A stretch of 64,000 nt of DNA, from contig NZ_CP102453.1 of NCBI RefSeq assembly GCF_024661895.1, positions 930,001 through 994,000 on the forward strand, in the 5' to 3' direction. The stretch's first letter is position 1. The number at the start of each line of letters is the position of its first letter. The translations under genes were made by a program, and so were the position numbers. Positions 33,274 through 59,850 of this stretch are shown here, piece after piece. Below the pieces are notes generated by a model that had not been told where the DNA came from, searched no databases, and saw only the letters and a list, made by a program, of their open reading frames with translations. The DNA is from Fundicoccus culcitae (GTDB taxonomy: Bacteria > Bacillota > Bacilli > Lactobacillales > Aerococcaceae).

Positions 33274-34293
33274 TTATTTAAAGGAATTGGCTAGTTGTAG
33301 GACGATGCGGATGCCTTTGGCTTCGTTGACTTCATTGGTACAACCGGTAATGAATACGTCGTATTTGGGGCAATAGTAACAGAGGACGCCGGTTGACCCA
33401 GAATGGCCGATGATTTCGGGGGCTCCAAAGGATTTGAATCGCATGTGGCCGAGTCCGTATTTTAAGGGGTAGAATTGAATGCTGTTATATTGTTTCATAG
33501 TAGGATAATGTTTAGCATCAAATAATTGGCCTGTCCAGAAGGCTTTCAAAAAAACCATCATATCAGTTTTAGTAGAAATAAGGCTACCTGAAGTTGGCCA
33601 GGCACCTAATGAATTCGGGACTTTATAGGTTTGGCCTTTCATCCAAAAGCCTGGAAAATCGTATGGCATGCCGGGGGTGTAAACATAAGTGTCCTGTAGT
33701 TGAAGCGGCTGAAAAATGTACTTTTGATAGTTTTCAGCCACACTAGCGTTTGTAAGGGTAACAATCAATGGTTCTAGAAGGTCAAAATTGATGTCGGAAT
33801 AATAGGCTTTCCCCTTGGTGTCGGGGGCGAAATGTGGTTTCAGTTGTTTGGTAATCGCTAAATTTTCTTCAAAAGTCACGACGGGATCTTGCGAAAAACG
33901 TTGCATAGTCGATTGTTGGTCTTTCGTGCTTTCCGTGAAATAATCGGGTAAACCGCTGGTCTGTGTTAATAAATGTCTCAGCGTTAAATAATTGGAGTAA
34001 TCTGTTCCTTTATAAATGTGAATGCCTGCTAGCATTGATGCTGGTAAATAGTTGTTCAGCCTATCGTCTAAAGCAATTTGACCTTGATCAACAAGTTTCA
34101 ACATAATGGTAGTCGCATATAATTTTGTTACACTGGCGATAGCAAATGGTTGATTATCTACTAAATCACCAGTTTCTCTTTGCCATTTGAAATTTCCTGT
34201 AGCATCTTCAACTAAGAATGCCATCCCAGATGATTTCATTTTTGCTTGATATTTATCATAGACTTTATTTAATTTTTCTTCGGTATTTTTCAT
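33274..34293 (-). CDS. Class C beta-lactamase-like serine hydrolase
   Basis: Start at ATG 34293 (MKNTEEKLNKVYDKYQAKMK) behind TAGGAGGCTTCCA, giving 339 residues; the longer frame to 34455 has no ribosome site. The SxxK motif is in FAIASVTKLYATT near residue 64, and the YxN-type motif is probably YYSDINFDL. A GHSGSTGVL segment near the C terminus takes the KTG-box position. There is no signal peptide, so it is probably cytoplasmic and acts as an esterase or D-aminopeptidase-like enzyme rather than a resistance enzyme. Confidence 0.82.
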   Translation of the reverse strand: MKNTEEKLNKVYDKYQAKMKSSGMAFLVEDATGNFKWQRETGDLVDNQPFAIASVTKLYATTIMLKLVDQGQIALDDRLNNYLPASMLAGIHIYKGTDYSNYLTLRHLLTQTSGLPDYFTESTKDQQSTMQRFSQDPVVTFEENLAITKQLKPHFAPDTKGKAYYSDINFDLLEPLIVTLTNASVAENYQKYIFQPLQLQDTYVYTPGMPYDFPGFWMKGQTYKVPNSLGAWPTSGSLISTKTDMMVFLKAFWTGQLFDAKHYPTMKQYNSIQFYPLKYGLGHMRFKSFGAPEIIGHSGSTGVLCYYCPKYDVFITGCTNEVNEAKGIRIVLQLANSFK

Positions 34294-34693
34294 TGGAAGC
34301 CTCCTATGTTTCTTGTTTGCAGTGATATGAGTTAGCTTGATTGTGTTTGGTCTGCGGCTGTGGATGGCTGTAAAGCAAGCAACATAGACATTTTTTCGAT
34401 TTGAGTTCATAATAGCATGATTTTGTTCAGGGGATGTATTGAAATAGCTTAACACAGTAATAAAACTTGATTTTACATCGTATAATTATGTAAAATTTTC
34501 TGCCCAATTACCAATGGTGGAAATGGTTTTATGGGATATATATCGCTTGAAGGATATAAAGTTAAAGCCGTGTAAACGCCACTCAACTTCATAGCTTTGA
34601 TTGGAACAGAATGACCGATCGAACTTTTATTGATCGAATTCGTTATGAACAGAAAACCTAGCCCCTAATAAAAGTGGTTTATACAAGTAGATA
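34294..34693. other. Non-coding spacer, possible gene debris
   Basis: No supported gene. The stretch 34540-34680 holds short interrupted frames that may be the end of a decayed transposase or other gene, but nothing can be named. It leads into the terminator at 34694. Confidence 0.4.
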
Positions 34694-34730
34694 AAAGCTC
34701 GTGAGTCCATTGGGTTCACGAGCTTTTTTA
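34694..34730 (+). terminator. Strong intrinsic terminator, plus strand
   Basis: AAAGCTCGTGA (34694-34704) pairs with TCACGAGCTTT (34716-34726) around an 11-base loop, followed by more T. No intact plus-strand gene precedes it, so it is left over from a lost gene. Confidence 0.75.
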
Positions 34731-34779
34731 TCGAATTAGGAACTAACTAGGGGGTAAGCGGGAAGTGAGTGGACGTTAA

Positions 34780-35005
34780 GTAAAGCTAATTGGTCATCTA
34801 CTGACTCATTTTCGTGACCGAATAAAGCTAATCTGTCATCTACTCGAGTAGCAAAAGACAGAATAGCCTTAATCTGTCATCTGCTCGGGTAGCAAAAGAC
34901 AGAATAGCCTTAATCTGTCATCTGCTCGGGTAGCAAAAGACAGAATAGCCTTAATCTGTCCAAAACAAGTAAAAAAGGACAGAATAGCTGATTCTGTCCA
35001 AATTC
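34780..35005. repeat. Hairpin array A: 41-bp tandem units with covarying stems
   Basis: Left stem arms start at 34792, 34833, 34874, 34915 and 34956, exactly 41 bp apart, and a worn sixth begins at 34994. Stem pairs change together: GGTCA/TGACC in unit 1, CTGTC/GACAG in units 2-4, CTGTCC/GGACAG in unit 5. Units 2-4 have an inner CTACTCGAGTAG-like palindrome. The 13-base linker is GAATAGCCTTAAT or GAATAAAGCTAAT. No protein-coding pattern is seen. Confidence 0.85.
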
Positions 35006-35042
35006 TGGATAAAAAAGTAAGTGGTAAAGGAGAAAACGTTAT

Positions 35043-35072
35043 AGTCACTCAGATATTTCCATGTGACAATAA
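35043..35072. repeat. Single hairpin unit related to arrays C and at 59.7 kb
   Basis: AGTCACTCAGATATTTCCAT then GTGACAAT resembles one unit of the TTGTCACTCAGA family found at 59691-59850 and, inverted, at 35671-35790. Confidence 0.55.
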
Positions 35073-35250
35073 CTTAAATGAGCATTGAAAGACGACCTAT
35101 CACTTCCTGTTTACGGTGGCGAAGCTTATGTTCTTCCTAGCCAACGGGGCGAACGCCAAATGAGTCGCCGTTTGGGTAACTGGGAAGTGAAAGACCGTCA
35201 AATTGACAAGTCACCTTTTTTTCTCCTAACCGCCACTCAGCTTGTTTAAA

Positions 35251-35440
35251 GGCGGATTGGGTGTCCCATCCGCCTCTCAGGATTTCCTCTGGCGGTTGGG
35301 GGTGCCAATCCGCCTCTCAGACTTCTCTCTGGCGGTTTGGAGGGCCAATCCGCCTCTCAGACTTCTCTCTGGCGGTTTGGAGGGCCAATCCGCCTCTCAA
35401 GTTGTTCTCTGGCGGTTTGGAGGTGCATCCGCTACTCAGG
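35251..35440. repeat. Hairpin array B: five 40-bp units with GGCGG/CCGCC stems
   Basis: Units begin at 35251, 35291, 35331, 35371 and 35411, exactly 40 bp apart. Most fold as GGCGGTTTGG with CCAATCCGCC around a short loop. Unit 1 has GGCGGATTGGG with CCCATCCGCC, a compensated change. Linkers are TCTCAGACTTCTCTCT or close variants. Two overlapping open frames cross the array only because the repeat lacks stop codons. Confidence 0.85.
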
Positions 35441-35670
35441 CTAAGTGGGAAGTGAAGAACCTTCATTTCTCACTTACGAAGAACCGAATGATTTAAACTA
35501 CAGCATTGTAGCAGATAAATATTGCTTATTGTTGGTGGAGCTAGTGTATCACTTCTCCAGCAATTAAATATAGTGGCGATGTTAAAATACCCTCTTGTTA
35601 TAAACCAAAGTAAGCATAAGTTGAAGAACTTATCTTGTTCCATTTGGCGGGTTATCTTTAATTGACGAGT

Positions 35671-35790
35671 TTATTGTCATGTAGAAAAATCTGAGTGACA
35701 ATGGGACGGCTTATTGTCATAAGAAAAAATTTGAGTGACAATGGGAGGCTTTATTGTCATGTAGAGAAATCTGAGTGACAATAGGACGGT
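35671..35790. repeat. Hairpin array C: three 40-bp units with ATTGTCA/TGACAAT stems
   Basis: Units begin with TTATTGTCAT at 35671, 35711 and 35751. Each has arms ATTGTCA and TGACAAT around a 16-base loop with AAATYTGAG. The same unit in inverted orientation forms the array at 59691-59850. Confidence 0.85.
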
Positions 35791-35839
35791 CCGTCACTTC
35801 CCACTTCCCGTTTGGCGGGTGATTCGAGAGCGAACGCCA

Positions 35840-35892
35840 AATAAAGCTAATCGGTCACCAAATACCTAATTTCATGACCGAATAGCCTGATT
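35840..35892. repeat. Hairpin D: isolated unit of array A type
   Basis: CGGTCA (35852-35857) pairs with TGACCG (35875-35880). It is preceded by AAATAAAGCTAAT and followed by AATAGCCTGATT, the array A linkers. This matches unit 1 of array A, about one kilobase away. Confidence 0.7.
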
Positions 35893-35930
35893 TGTAGTTT
35901 ATTTAATGGTCACACATTTCCCGTTTAGTT

Positions 35931-36090
35931 TCACGCTCACATCAACAGCACGAATATGTGTGCGCTCACCATCACGCTCACAACAACTGCTCCAATATGT
36001 GTGCGCCCACCATCACGCTCACATCAACTGCTCCGATATGTGTGCGCCCACCATCACGCTCACAACAACTGCTCCAATATGTGTGCGCCT
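35931..36090. repeat. Hairpin array E: four 41-bp units with CGCTCACA/TGTGTGCG stems
   Basis: Units begin TCACGCTCAC at 35931, 35972, 36013 and 36054. The arms CGCTCACA and TGTGTGCG pair at seven of eight positions. Loop and linker are nearly constant (CTGCTCCAATA, CCCACCA). An open plus frame through the array is a by-product of its 41-bp period. Confidence 0.8.
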
Positions 36091-36204
36091 ACGTAAGTGA
36101 GAAATAACGATTCTTCACTTCCCACTTACACTAGGGATTTTCATTCTTATTTTTCCAAAAAGAGGAACCAACTCCCCACCTTCATTCCTCATTACACCAC
36201 AAAC

Positions 36205-37077
36205 CTACTTAATAGCCCCTTCAACCATTCCCCGCATAATCTGCTTTTGTGCAAATAAGAAGATAATAATCACCGGTGCTATAACCATCAAGGAAGACGT
36301 TAGTATCATATCCCACTGCCTTGTGTAGGAGCCAGCAAAGTTGGCTACTGCAATAGGCAAGGTTTGAATATCGTTTCCTACACCCAAAAGTAACAAAGGA
36401 AGTAAGTAGTCATTCCAAATCCAAATACCATTTAAAATCAAAATCGTAACGGTAATTGGTTTTAACAAAGGCAAAACGACATACACAAAGGTTTGCAACT
36501 TATTAGCCCCATCAATTTCAGCCGCTTCCTCAATTTCCACAGGAACCCCTTTAATAAAACCATGGAACATAAATACGGACATTCCCATCCCAAAGCCGGC
36601 ATAGGCTAGAAACACACCCCAATAGGATCGCAACAAACTAAAACCAAATAAAGGTTGAGTCACGTTTTCTTGCAAGAACCTGAACCAAGAAATCAAAGGA
36701 TACATAACTACTTGGAAAGGAATAACCATTGAAGCCACAAACATTAAAAAGATAGCATTCGATAATTTGGTTTTGCGGCGCACTAAACCCCAAGCGGCTA
36801 AAGACGATACAATGGTAATTATCAGCAACGACACAACGGTAATGATAACTGAAGATATAAAACTCTCCCGATAATTGATCGACGGATTATTCCAAATCGA
36901 CACCACATTATCAATAAAGACGCCCCAATCCTGCGGCAACGATAAAGGATTTAATAATATATCTCTGGATGATTTGGCTGAATTAATCACAATCAAAATA
37001 AATGGACTAATAACGAGGATGAAAAGTAAAATTGCTACAATTTCTAAAATAAGTAAGCCTCTTTTACGTGCTTTCAT
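36205..37077 (-). CDS. Sugar ABC transporter permease, MalG type
   Basis: A 290-residue membrane protein with six helices and the permease EAA loop EEAAEIDGANKLQTFVYVVL followed by PLLKP, which docks to the ATPase. It matches the second (MalG/UgpE-like) permease of carbohydrate importers. It starts at 37077, sharing its first base with the end of the MalF-type gene. No ATPase gene is present in this cluster; a shared MsmK-like ATPase encoded elsewhere would be needed, as in other Firmicutes. Confidence 0.9.
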   Translation of the reverse strand: MKARKRGLLILEIVAILLFILVISPFILIVINSAKSSRDILLNPLSLPQDWGVFIDNVVSIWNNPSINYRESFISSVIITVVSLLIITIVSSLAAWGLVRRKTKLSNAIFLMFVASMVIPFQVVMYPLISWFRFLQENVTQPLFGFSLLRSYWGVFLAYAGFGMGMSVFMFHGFIKGVPVEIEEAAEIDGANKLQTFVYVVLPLLKPITVTILILNGIWIWNDYLLPLLLLGVGNDIQTLPIAVANFAGSYTRQWDMILTSSLMVIAPVIIIFLFAQKQIMRGMVEGAIK

Positions 37078-40376: not shown

Positions 40377-43300
40377 TTACAGCTCCTTTTCAAGTCTATT
40401 TGAAATCTTAGTTAATATCGTAATTAGGATGATATACATTAAGCCAATGATTAACCACATAGCACCTGATTGATAAGTACGTGCAATGATTATACGCCCG
40501 GTTTGGGTTAATTCCACTAAACCAATGACGGATAAAATTGAAGTATCTTTCAAGGTAATAACAAATTGATTGATGAAAGATGGAATCATAATTCTGAAGG
40601 CTTGTGGTAAAATAACGCGTCTCATTGTCTTACTTTGGTTCAAACCTAGACTACGTGCAGCTTCAGCTTGGCCAATATCAACGGCATTAATACCCCCGCG
40701 TACAATCTCGGCTATATAAGCAGCCGCATTTAAACTTAAAGTGGTTATTCCAGCAGTATAAGCACCGAATTGTAATCCGGTCAATTGTGGGAAACCAAAG
40801 TAGATAAAGAACGCTAATACAATTAATGGCATACCACGCATAATATCAATATAGATTTGAGCAATTATGGATAAAATTAAATTATCTGATGTCCGCATTA
40901 ATCCAATCACAACACCAAGAACGGCAGCTATGGCGAATGAAACGAGCGTCACCCACAAGGTCGTCCATAATCCATTCATTAAGGCTTTCCCATTTTCTTG
41001 AATCAAACTAACAAATTGATTGGTGGATTGGGTTGTTTCCTCAACTAATTCCGCTTCTTCTTCAGACTCACCTAAATAAGTTTCGACAATGTCATCGTAT
41101 TCTCCTGAAGCCTGAATATTACTCAACCCTTGATTGAATAAAGTCAATAGATCACTGTTTTGGCCTTTTTGAACCGCAAAACCATAGTCAGCTACTTCTA
41201 ATTGTTCACCAATAAAACGTAATGGGATCCCACCTGTTTCAGCCGCATAAGCCATAACCGGATAATCTTCTATAACAGCCACCGAATTACTCGCTTGTAA
41301 GTCTTCATACATATTCACTGAATCTTCGAAGATGGTAATAGTAAACCCATAGTCATCCGCTAAGGATTCAGCAACAGCCATTCCTTGTGTCCCCGTCTTA
41401 ACCGCAACATTTTCGCCTTCTAAATCTTCTAAGGTTTGGAATTCACTATCATCTAAAACAGCAAATTGAACGCCCGCTGAAAAATACGTATCAGAAAAAT
41501 CAAAACTTTCCCGACGAGCATCAGTAATACTCATCCCCGCAATCATACCATCTACTTGTCCTGCTTCAACAGCTTGTAAAGCAGCATTAAACCCTAACGG
41601 ACGAATTTCATACTCAAAACCTTGGTCTTCAGCAATAGCAGCCAATAAATCCATATCAATCCCAACATAATCACCATTCTCATCTTGAAATTCAAACGGT
41701 GCAAATGTTGTATCTGTACCAATCACATAAGTTATAGCTGGATCAGCAATAACAGTTGTTGCATCTGTCATTGAAGTTGATGCCGTTGTATCTTCTCCCA
41801 AATAATTAGCAATAATCGCATCATATTCTCCTGATGCTTGTAAATTACTCAACCCTTGATTGAATAATGCTAATAGATCACTGTTTTGGCCTTTTTGAAC
41901 CGCAAAACCATAATCAGCTACTTCCATTTGTTCACCAATAAAACGTAATGGGATCCCACCTGTTTCAGCCGCATAGGCCATAACCGGATAATCTTCTATA
42001 ACAGCCACCGAATTACTCGCTTGTAAGTCTTCATACATATTCACTGAATCTTCGAAGATGGTAATAGTAAACCCATAGTCATCCGCTAAGGATTCAGCAA
42101 CAGCCATTCCTTGTGTCCCCGTCTTAACCGCAACATTTTCGCCTTCTAAATCTTCTAAGGTTTGGAATTCACTATCATCTAAAACAGCAAATTGAACGCC
42201 CGCTGAAAAATACGTATCAGAAAAATCAAAACTTTCCCGACGAGCATCAGTAATACTCATCCCCGCAATCATACCATCTACTTGTCCTGCTTCAACAGCT
42301 TGTAAAGCAGCATTAAACCCTAACGGACGAATTTCATACTCAAAACCTTGGTCTTCAGCAATAGCAGCCAATAAATCCATATCAATCCCAACATAATTAC
42401 CTGCTTCATCTTGGAATTCAAAAGGAGCAAATGTTGTATCCGTACCAATCACATACGTTGTATCTGGGTCAGCCACTACCTCAGCTGTATCAGAAGACAT
42501 TGTTGATTCATTACTACCTTCACCTAAGTAACCAGCAACAATTGCATCATATTCACCAGATTCTTTCAAGTTGGCTAATCCTTGATTGAACAACGCTAAT
42601 AAATCACCATTTTGGCCTTTTTGAACCGCAAATCCATAATCAGCCACTTCCATTTGTTCACCAATAAAACGTAATGGGATCCCACCTGTTTCGGCCGCAT
42701 AAGCCATAACCGGATAATCTTCTATAACAGCCACCGAATTACCCGCTTGTAAGTCTTCATACATATTCACTGAATCTTCGAAGATGGTAATAGTAAAGCC
42801 ATAGTCATCCGCTAAGGATTCAGCAACAGCCATTCCTTGTGTCCCCGTCTTAACCGCAACATTTTCGCCCTCTAAATCTTCTAAGGTTTGGAATTCACTA
42901 TCATCTAAAACAGCAAATTGGACCCCAGCAGAGAAGTACGTATCAGAAAAATCAAAGCTTTCCCGACGAGCATCAGTAATACTCATCCCCGCAATCATAC
43001 CATCTACTTGTCCTGCTTCAACAGCTTGTAAAGCAGGATTAAACCCTAACGGACGTAGCTCATAATTAAAGCCTTGGTTTTGAGCGATGGCAGCTAATAA
43101 ATCCATATCAATCCCAACATAATTACCTGCTTCATCTTGGAATTCAAAAGGAGCAAACGTTGTATCCGTACCAATCACATACGTTGTATCTGGGTCAGCC
43201 ACAACGACCGTCTCATCCGATTCGTCAACTGCTACTACATCCGATTCAGACACTGTTTCCTCTGTTACTAAATCATTTTCACCTAAATGTGCCGCTATAA

Positions 43301-44048
43301 TCGCATCATACTCACCTGAAGCTTGAAGGTTACTTAAACCGGCGTTAAACATGTCAATTAGTTCTGAATTATCACCTTTTTTTACAGCAAAGCCATAATC
43401 AGCCACTTCCATTTGTTCACCAATAAAGCGTAATGGAATCCCACCTGTTTCAGCCGCATAAGCCATAACCGGATAATCTTCAATGACCGCCACCGAGTTA
43501 CCCGCTAATAAATCTTCATACATATTCACCGAGTCTTCAAAAGCTGTAAGGGTAAAACCATAGTCATCAGCAACAGACTCAGCAACCGCCATCCCTTGCG
43601 TCCCGGTTTTAACCGCTACATTCTCACCAGCTAAATCTTCTAAAGACTGGAACTCACTATCATCCAATACGGCAAATTGAACGCCCGCTGAAAAATACGT
43701 ATCAGAAAAATCAAAGGTTTCACGACGGGCATCAGTAATACTCATCCCCGCAATCATACCGTCAACTTGACCACTTTCGACAGCTTGTAGGGCCGCATTA
43801 AAGCCTAATGGACGAATTTCATACTTAAATCCTTGGTCGTCAGCAATAGCTGCGATTAAATCCATATCAATGCCAACAAAATCACCCTTCTCATCTTGGT
43901 ACTCAAAAGGAGCAAAGGTAGTATCTGTTGCAATCACATAGGTAGGTTCGTCATTTTGAGCTGCAACTTGTTGCGCCAAGGCTGGTGCTCCAATCATTGT
44001 TAACAGCATGACAACTAACGTTAAAGATAACCATTTAAAATACTTCAT
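40377..44048 (-). CDS. glnP: GlnP-like amino-acid importer: four tandem binding domains fused to the permease
   Basis: A 1223-residue protein. The signal sequence ends at ALAQQ (about residue 26). Four family 3 binding domains follow, starting near residues 36, 289, 531 and 773, each opening with TYVIxTDTTFAPFE and containing GMIAGMSITDARRE and AVKTGTQGMAVAE. Residues 1010-1223 are the membrane permease with GQAEAARSLGLNQSKTMRRV as EAA loop. Domains 2-4 repeat with an exact 726-base period and are nearly identical, so they amplified recently; domain 1 is more divergent. Known GlnP proteins of lactic acid bacteria have one or two such domains. Extra domains should raise capture of substrate near the translocator. 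An assembly collapse or expansion cannot be excluded from sequence alone. Confidence 0.92.
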   Translation of the reverse strand: MKYFKWLSLTLVVMLLTMIGAPALAQQVAAQNDEPTYVIATDTTFAPFEYQDEKGDFVGIDMDLIAAIADDQGFKYEIRPLGFNAALQAVESGQVDGMIAGMSITDARRETFDFSDTYFSAGVQFAVLDDSEFQSLEDLAGENVAVKTGTQGMAVAESVADDYGFTLTAFEDSVNMYEDLLAGNSVAVIEDYPVMAYAAETGGIPLRFIGEQMEVADYGFAVKKGDNSELIDMFNAGLSNLQASGEYDAIIAAHLGENDLVTEETVSESDVVAVDESDETVVVADPDTTYVIGTDTTFAPFEFQDEAGNYVGIDMDLLAAIAQNQGFNYELRPLGFNPALQAVEAGQVDGMIAGMSITDARRESFDFSDTYFSAGVQFAVLDDSEFQTLEDLEGENVAVKTGTQGMAVAESLADDYGFTITIFEDSVNMYEDLQAGNSVAVIEDYPVMAYAAETGGIPLRFIGEQMEVADYGFAVQKGQNGDLLALFNQGLANLKESGEYDAIVAGYLGEGSNESTMSSDTAEVVADPDTTYVIGTDTTFAPFEFQDEAGNYVGIDMDLLAAIAEDQGFEYEIRPLGFNAALQAVEAGQVDGMIAGMSITDARRESFDFSDTYFSAGVQFAVLDDSEFQTLEDLEGENVAVKTGTQGMAVAESLADDYGFTITIFEDSVNMYEDLQASNSVAVIEDYPVMAYAAETGGIPLRFIGEQMEVADYGFAVQKGQNSDLLALFNQGLSNLQASGEYDAIIANYLGEDTTASTSMTDATTVIADPAITYVIGTDTTFAPFEFQDENGDYVGIDMDLLAAIAEDQGFEYEIRPLGFNAALQAVEAGQVDGMIAGMSITDARRESFDFSDTYFSAGVQFAVLDDSEFQTLEDLEGENVAVKTGTQGMAVAESLADDYGFTITIFEDSVNMYEDLQASNSVAVIEDYPVMAYAAETGGIPLRFIGEQLEVADYGFAVQKGQNSDLLTLFNQGLSNIQASGEYDDIVETYLGESEEEAELVEETTQSTNQFVSLIQENGKALMNGLWTTLWVTLVSFAIAAVLGVVIGLMRTSDNLILSIIAQIYIDIMRGMPLIVLAFFIYFGFPQLTGLQFGAYTAGITTLSLNAAAYIAEIVRGGINAVDIGQAEAARSLGLNQSKTMRRVILPQAFRIMIPSFINQFVITLKDTSILSVIGLVELTQTGRIIIARTYQSGAMWLIIGLMYIILITILTKISNRLEKEL
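41058..43190 (-). repeat. Three in-frame 726-bp tandem repeats inside glnP
   Basis: Equivalent positions 41715, 42441 and 43167 are each 726 bases apart (242 codons). Long blocks are identical at the DNA level, including silent sites, which shows recent duplication or ongoing gene conversion. Confidence 0.88.
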
Positions 44049-59625: not shown

Positions 59626-59690
59626 ATATTTGTTGTTTAATGAGGCTTTTTAACTCAACTAGGTTTTTCTGAGTGGCATAAAACCGGCCC

Positions 59691-59850
59691 ATTGTCACTC
59701 AGATTTTCTCCCATGACAATAAGACGCCCCATTGTCACTCAGATTTTCTCTCATGACAATAAGACGCCCCATTGTCACTCAGATTTTCTCTCATGACAAT
59801 AAGACGCCCCATTGTCACTCAGATTTTCTCTCATGACAATAAACCACATT
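59691..59850. repeat. Hairpin array: four 40-bp units with ATTGTCA/TGACAAT stems
   Basis: Units begin ATTGTCACTCAGATTTTCTC at 59691, 59731, 59771 and 59811, exactly 40 bp apart. Arms ATTGTCA and TGACAAT enclose a 16-base loop, and the linker is AAGACGCCCC. This is the array C unit (35671-35790) in opposite orientation. It fills the gap between the NERD and flavoenzyme genes. Confidence 0.88.

Follow-up and report, generated by a model that had tools for sequence, protein, structure and literature searches.

Tandem hairpin arrays of constant period and varied sequence in Fundicoccus culcitae: putative phased DNA sites, carried in part by IS66-family MITEs

An island of hairpin arrays on the chromosome of Fundicoccus culcitae is a nest of IS66-family MITE insertions, barring an extra G at its outer end, and the tandem hairpin arrays extend beyond these elements, as they are found both in and out of them. 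We consider the arrays to be putative helically phased inverted-repeat DNA sites which are locally duplicated and, in this genome, spread on IS66 MITEs; for this reading as a whole the chances appear about even. We infer a role as phased sites in duplex DNA from the unit length, the conservation of the arms and the weak signs of RNA.

The genome under study (G000) is a single contig of 3,224,940 bp, of which positions 930001-994000 form the window, i.e., the whole stretch of 64,000 bp that was analysed. Arrays A, B, C and E and the single unit D were all found as originally described (the four arrays by TRF); a serine hydrolase gene and an ABC permease gene, 1.75 kb apart, lie on either side of them, and the ORF list holds no ORF of at least 100 aa from 34455 to 36205. 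The earlier description of a gene-free island held, but its limits had been drawn too narrowly and are corrected here to 34754-36129. The window has the following features:

33274-34455, minus strand: serine hydrolase gene (Pfam Beta-lactamase)
34754-36129, no strand: outer MITE-like element with the inverted ends GTAAGCGGGAAGTGA / TCACTTCCCACTTAC
34780-34960, plus strand: one D-type unit, then array A (41 bp x 3.2; TRF 34829-34960)
34960-35010, plus strand: A2-type units, CTGTCC / GGACAG
35176-35808, no strand: inner element with arrays B and C, inserted into an F-type hairpin unit, with an exact 7-bp duplication
35268-35423, plus strand: array B, 40 bp x 3.9, arms CCGCC / GGCGG (TRF)
35670-35789, plus strand: array C, 40 bp x 3.0, arms ATTGTCA / TGACAAT (TRF)
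about 35841-35885, plus strand: single D unit, arms CGGTCA / TGACCG
35931-36089, plus strand: array E, 41 bp x 3.9, arms CGCTCACA / TGTGTGCG, whose mid-stem mismatch is conserved (TRF)
36205-37077, minus strand: ABC permease gene
59688-59842, minus strand: fifth array, of the C family in reverse complement, 40 bp x 3.9 (TRF)

Units of type D occur in tandem elsewhere (L007 1941-2023), and no IS66-type end lies near the fifth array. That sequences differ completely between the arrays, as had been claimed, is only partly right, A, C and D having a GTC...GAC arm core in common (by eye), and the stem changes reported within array A mostly reflect a change of family, from a D-type unit to A and then to A2. 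The nearest named relative of the permease is found in Fundicoccus ignavus (Aerococcaceae; 88 percent identity), where at the corresponding place (L125) the permease is followed by a different gene and the array is absent. An origin from a phage or plasmid was rejected, with zero blastn matches. Just outside the island, a strong hairpin flanked on either side by T and A tracts (34693-34732) is likely a two-way terminator. Elsewhere in the window, a 1223-aa ORF (40377-44048, minus strand) comprises about four near-identical solute-binding-like domains in series and a permease-like C-terminus (by eye).

The island has 175 matches within its own genome, many of which stop at the 15-bp motif GTAAGYGGGAAGTGA. 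With at most two mismatches this end motif occurs 310 times in G000, compared to 9 times for a reversed control; at one mismatch there are 187 occurrences, and at most three in every other of the 76 family genomes. Nine IS66 transposase matches without internal stops are present in G000, and the copies at L075 and L076 bear the same ends as the island elements together with IS66 tnpB/tnpC-type genes. In the genome G024, a pair of MITE-type ends at L061 likewise frames two IS66 genes, a tnpB and a tnpC, the latter divided between two reading frames. The island elements hence have what marks IS66-family MITEs, namely ends in common with a resident IS66 and no transposase inside. The target duplication of IS66 is usually 8 bp. 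Here, among 243 pairs of inward-facing ends at most 2.6 kb apart, the 7-bp flanks are identical in 15 pairs and the 8-bp flanks in none, whereas re-paired controls gave 0.9 pairs with identical 7-bp flanks on average and never more than 4; the IS66 copies at L075 and L076 themselves show an exact 7-bp, not an 8-bp, duplication.

Among these 15 pairs is the inner element, which is flanked by exact copies of CGTTTGG (35169-35175 and 35809-35815). The outer element lies between ACTAGGG at 34746-34752 and at 36130-36136 and, because of one extra G on the left (34753), is a near case outside the 15 exact ones. The island looks like one insertion with a second element nested inside, and it is this nesting of MITE insertions which placed different arrays end to end. 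A mobile miniature element, one of the roles originally suggested, is thus borne out for the island by the IS66-type ends and 7-bp duplications. Seven of the 15 exact-duplication insertions are located inside arrays (by reading); since most of those loci were found via array similarity, we make no claim that the MITEs prefer arrays as targets. At another locus (L065, G000 1439571-1441550), array and MITE sequence of about 1 kb in length is tandemly repeated with a shift of 990 bp and an ungapped identity of 715/990, hence with indels.

The pattern of constant period and variable sequence, first noted in the island, proved to be genome-wide and was met again in a second genus, there with periods of 41 and 50-52 bp. 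Counting arrays with at least 2.5 copies and a period of at least 15 bp in the window and in 20 regularly spaced stretches of 20 kb (464,000 bp of G000), 20 of 26 have a period of 40 or 41 bp, more than chance would give. Forty-five arrays fall into 17 sequence families, a few being coding or without a clear hairpin, and the mean score of the best inverted repeat in a unit is 6.45, versus 4.35 in mononucleotide shuffles (42 arrays, including two coding or doubtful ones). Similar arrays, which had been proposed as a check in relatives, were found in G024 and G025, two genomes of another genus of the family (g6). The stretches of G024 (436,415 bp) hold arrays of 41 (6), 50 (1), 51 (19) and 52 bp (2), besides one 45-bp array without hairpin and some arrays at multiples, and those of G025 (160,000 bp) hold arrays of 41 (4) and 51 bp (3), a clear hairpin not being present in every one of these. 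Relatives were sampled as stretches; at this scope, G023 (60,000 bp) had zero such arrays, ten other family genomes (871,776 bp) zero arrays of 34 to 54 bp, and 20 genomes of the order (stretches totalling 330,945 bp) zero arrays of 28 to 60 bp. A set of 80 named loci (638,060 bp) gave one array of 31 and one of 39 bp. Apart from G000, one of 395 genomes of the order matched the island, over 25 bp; Streptococcus pneumoniae may or may not be among them. Within open-access PMC, no literature was found on arrays equal in length and different in sequence.

Consecutive hairpins are spaced by 31 (10 cases), 39-43 (248), 50-52 (83) or 62 bp (5), and one further spacing is 28 bp. These classes, near 3, 4, 5 or 6 helical turns, take up 346 of the 347 spacings below 66 bp, in a set which comprises 26 arm patterns (three giving no spacing) and counts some arrays under two patterns (f within g, and the linker hairpin of C probably within H). 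One family alternates between 40 and 62. Considering arrays with a stem score of at least 6, the variance of the unit length is 0.26 in the shorter class (30 arrays), compared to 5.5 and 5.6 for the arm spacings, and 0.33 in the longer class (24 arrays), compared to 8.4 and 7.2. There is strong evidence for tight unit lengths, and moderate evidence for lengths in helical steps. If families are treated as independent (23 family spacings), the fit to a single step near 10.45 bp was unmatched in 20,000 simulations (P <1/20,000). Independent lengths are, however, few, because families may share ancestry: taking the classes 31, 41, 51 and 62 only, P amounts to 0.016 when steps are scanned and to 0.0035 for a step of 10.5 bp, and with 43 as fifth class these values become 0.063 and 0.0145. 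The 43-bp family, with 30 spacings, fits the ladder poorly. Individual loci at these lengths include a hairpin array at L100 (3744-4215) with a 31-bp unit, equal to three helical turns and reported by TRF as a period of 93, and the 43-bp hairpin family at L026 (260-984) and L024 (1862-2244), which has up to 17 copies and lies off a 10.25-bp ladder.

The array arms are conserved as sequence. In ten families of G000, minor bases make up a fraction of 0.066 in the arms, compared to 0.236 in the loops and 0.314 in the linkers, and in seven families of G024 and G025 the corresponding values are 0.088, 0.331 and 0.324 (units picked by whole-unit similarity; L061 was dropped as it overlaps L251); in the g6 family f the linker varies less than the loop. 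Covariation of the stems, which had been put forward as evidence, is not supported as the main argument: it beats shuffles clearly in A and marginally in A2, and not in the other eight of the ten families. In families E and H, broken pairs even exceed the shuffle mean, and 81 of the 101 units of family E have retained a T-T or A-A mismatch.

Within arrays, units are more alike than between arrays in 7/7 families. The arrays also come and go: in all four gene gaps that were compared, picked from gene matches between genomes, an array or MITE is present in one genome and absent from the other. Both flanking genes matched for G025 L258 versus G024 and for G025 L262 versus G000, and one for G000 leuS versus G024 and for G000 L093 versus G024; G000 L098 and G025 L120 were rejected as one gap with two different arrays and not counted, the arrays being on opposite gene sides. 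Divergent gaps account for 2/24 classified array-bearing gaps versus 38/191 of all gaps, and a further count of 5/79 divergent, which includes loci chosen for arrays, agrees. In G024 and G025, a family with 51-bp units has seven arrays, five of which adjoin a common dispersed stretch of about 340 bp, whose copies are 73-85 percent identical apart from one stretch common to two neighbouring arrays. In G024 this stretch was seen at L210, L251, L256 and L257, with ends that include TGGACCCCAT-like sequence. Single dispersed hairpins were also noted by eye near arrays of G024 and G025 (L258, L262, L256, L257, L250), e.g., GAGTCGC/GCGACTC, GTCAATTTC/GAAATTGAC and CTTTTAGG/CCTAAAAG.

Several explanations have to be weighed against that of phased DNA sites. 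Transcribed arrays could act as RNA hairpins serving stability, processing or as decoys, which we hold to be improbable. The units are able to fold, four of them giving z values of -1.9 to -3.6 as single-stranded DNA, and one array is probably transcribed because of its place: six 42-bp hairpin units (L086 5551-5808; G000 325551-325808) separate a T-box leader (Rfam RF00230, L086 5270-5486) from the beginning of a leucyl-tRNA synthetase-like gene, named leuS by eye, while the corresponding gene of G024 is without them. This array speaks against phased sites in duplex DNA, as does an excess of G-T over A-C arm changes in G024 and G025 (62 versus 40), which leans towards RNA. In nine families of G000 (without A2), however, G-T is not above A-C (49 versus 61), and compensatory changes make up 12 of 216 arm changes. 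Moreover, the arrays are of mixed orientation relative to genes, little covariation is seen, and nothing in RNA would call for a unit length close to helical turns. The window has zero Rfam matches at gathering score, and a known RNA family was rejected on this ground; two matches of the island below threshold, the best with an E of 0.012 to a microRNA family, were taken as chance. Since compensatory changes are rare and G-T does not consistently outnumber A-C, these counts do not favour RNA structure, and the RNA role that had been considered originally is not supported; on balance, the data fit DNA sites better than RNA hairpins, although the second genus leans the opposite way.

A different option is a selfish palindromic satellite with no partner protein, in which hairpins would promote slippage and duplication, founders would set the unit length, and MITEs and recombination would spread the product. 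The local duplication in all seven families, the differing presence in all four gaps and the few divergent array-bearing gaps would all suit such a satellite. On its own, however, it predicts neither the conservation of arms next to free loops, seen in two genera, nor several lengths near whole helical turns, and we regard it as unlikely, though it remains a serious rival. The IS66 transposase itself might also make the arrays: an inward IS66-type end lies within 600 bp on at least one side of 26 of 42 arrays and on both sides of 14 (by reading), and the three copies with such ends that were examined in array-bearing genomes (L075, L076, L061) lie inside hairpin arrays, of three different families. 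IS66 is present in 18 of the 76 family genomes. G025 has arrays without an IS66 match at E <= 0.001, which weakens this proposal, and samples of the IS66 carriers G051, G071 and G022 are free of hairpin arrays of these kinds, the copy examined in G022 (L062) being outside any array; we therefore judge IS66 as maker of the arrays very improbable. An origin via RAYT and REP was rejected, as no RAYT match was obtained at E <= 0.001 in the array-bearing genomes G000, G024 and G025; in 25 of the 76 family genomes there were weak matches, all of which missed the cut-off.

According to the reading as phased sites, each unit would be an inverted-repeat site in duplex DNA, to which a dimeric protein or one that recognises structure would bind, and adjacent units would have to share one helix face, which would keep the unit length near whole turns. 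Arrays would grow through local tandem duplication; here the IS66 transposase would spread them by way of MITE ends, and some arrays of the second genus stand beside another dispersed element. The families would then represent different site sequences on one architecture. Such sites would need many specificities, or a structure-reading protein, for the many arm sequences, and the misfit of the 43-bp family and the small number of independent lengths also count against them. A related and more tentative possibility is a length-quantised hairpin satellite as a new class of bacterial repeat, in which many unrelated sequences would be held to 3, 4, 5 or 6 turns per unit by one common DNA-binding or duplicating machinery, responsive to spacing and inverted symmetry instead of sequence.

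REP and BIME sequences are dispersed intergenic palindromes, some in arrays, from which the present case differs by the lack of a RAYT match in G000, G024 and G025. Compared to other IS66-family MITEs, the elements described here are likewise non-coding with the ends of a resident IS66, but they carry tandem hairpin arrays and have a 7-bp target duplication. BOX elements of Streptococcus pneumoniae are nearest in kind to the island arrays; they are MITE-like, modular and intergenic, with terminal inverted repeats, target duplications and stem-loops, and their middle module, of a single boxB family, is absent or present in several copies (PMC3049150). The island elements are also MITE-like, modular, stem-loop-bearing and intergenic. 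In contrast to the one boxB family described there, many families of common length occur here, the ends are those of the resident IS66, and arrays also occur without them. A further parallel is sopC, the centromere of the F plasmid, a series of twelve 43-bp repeats in tandem with an inverted repeat to which ParB binds (PMC9178275, PMC6238139). The arrays described here are also tandem units each with an inverted repeat, but while sopC is one plasmid site of one sequence beside parAB, here many chromosomal sites and many sequences are involved. By analogy, sopC illustrates that such a layout can work as a series of protein-bound sites, and we do not claim membership for the arrays.

Bacterial tandem repeats of unrelated sequence are not expected to share a unit length. 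The many families in two genera, with lengths near whole turns, conserved arms and free loops, point to a physical or enzymatic ruler, and the IS66 transposase is the likely spreader of the MITEs with their hairpin cargo.
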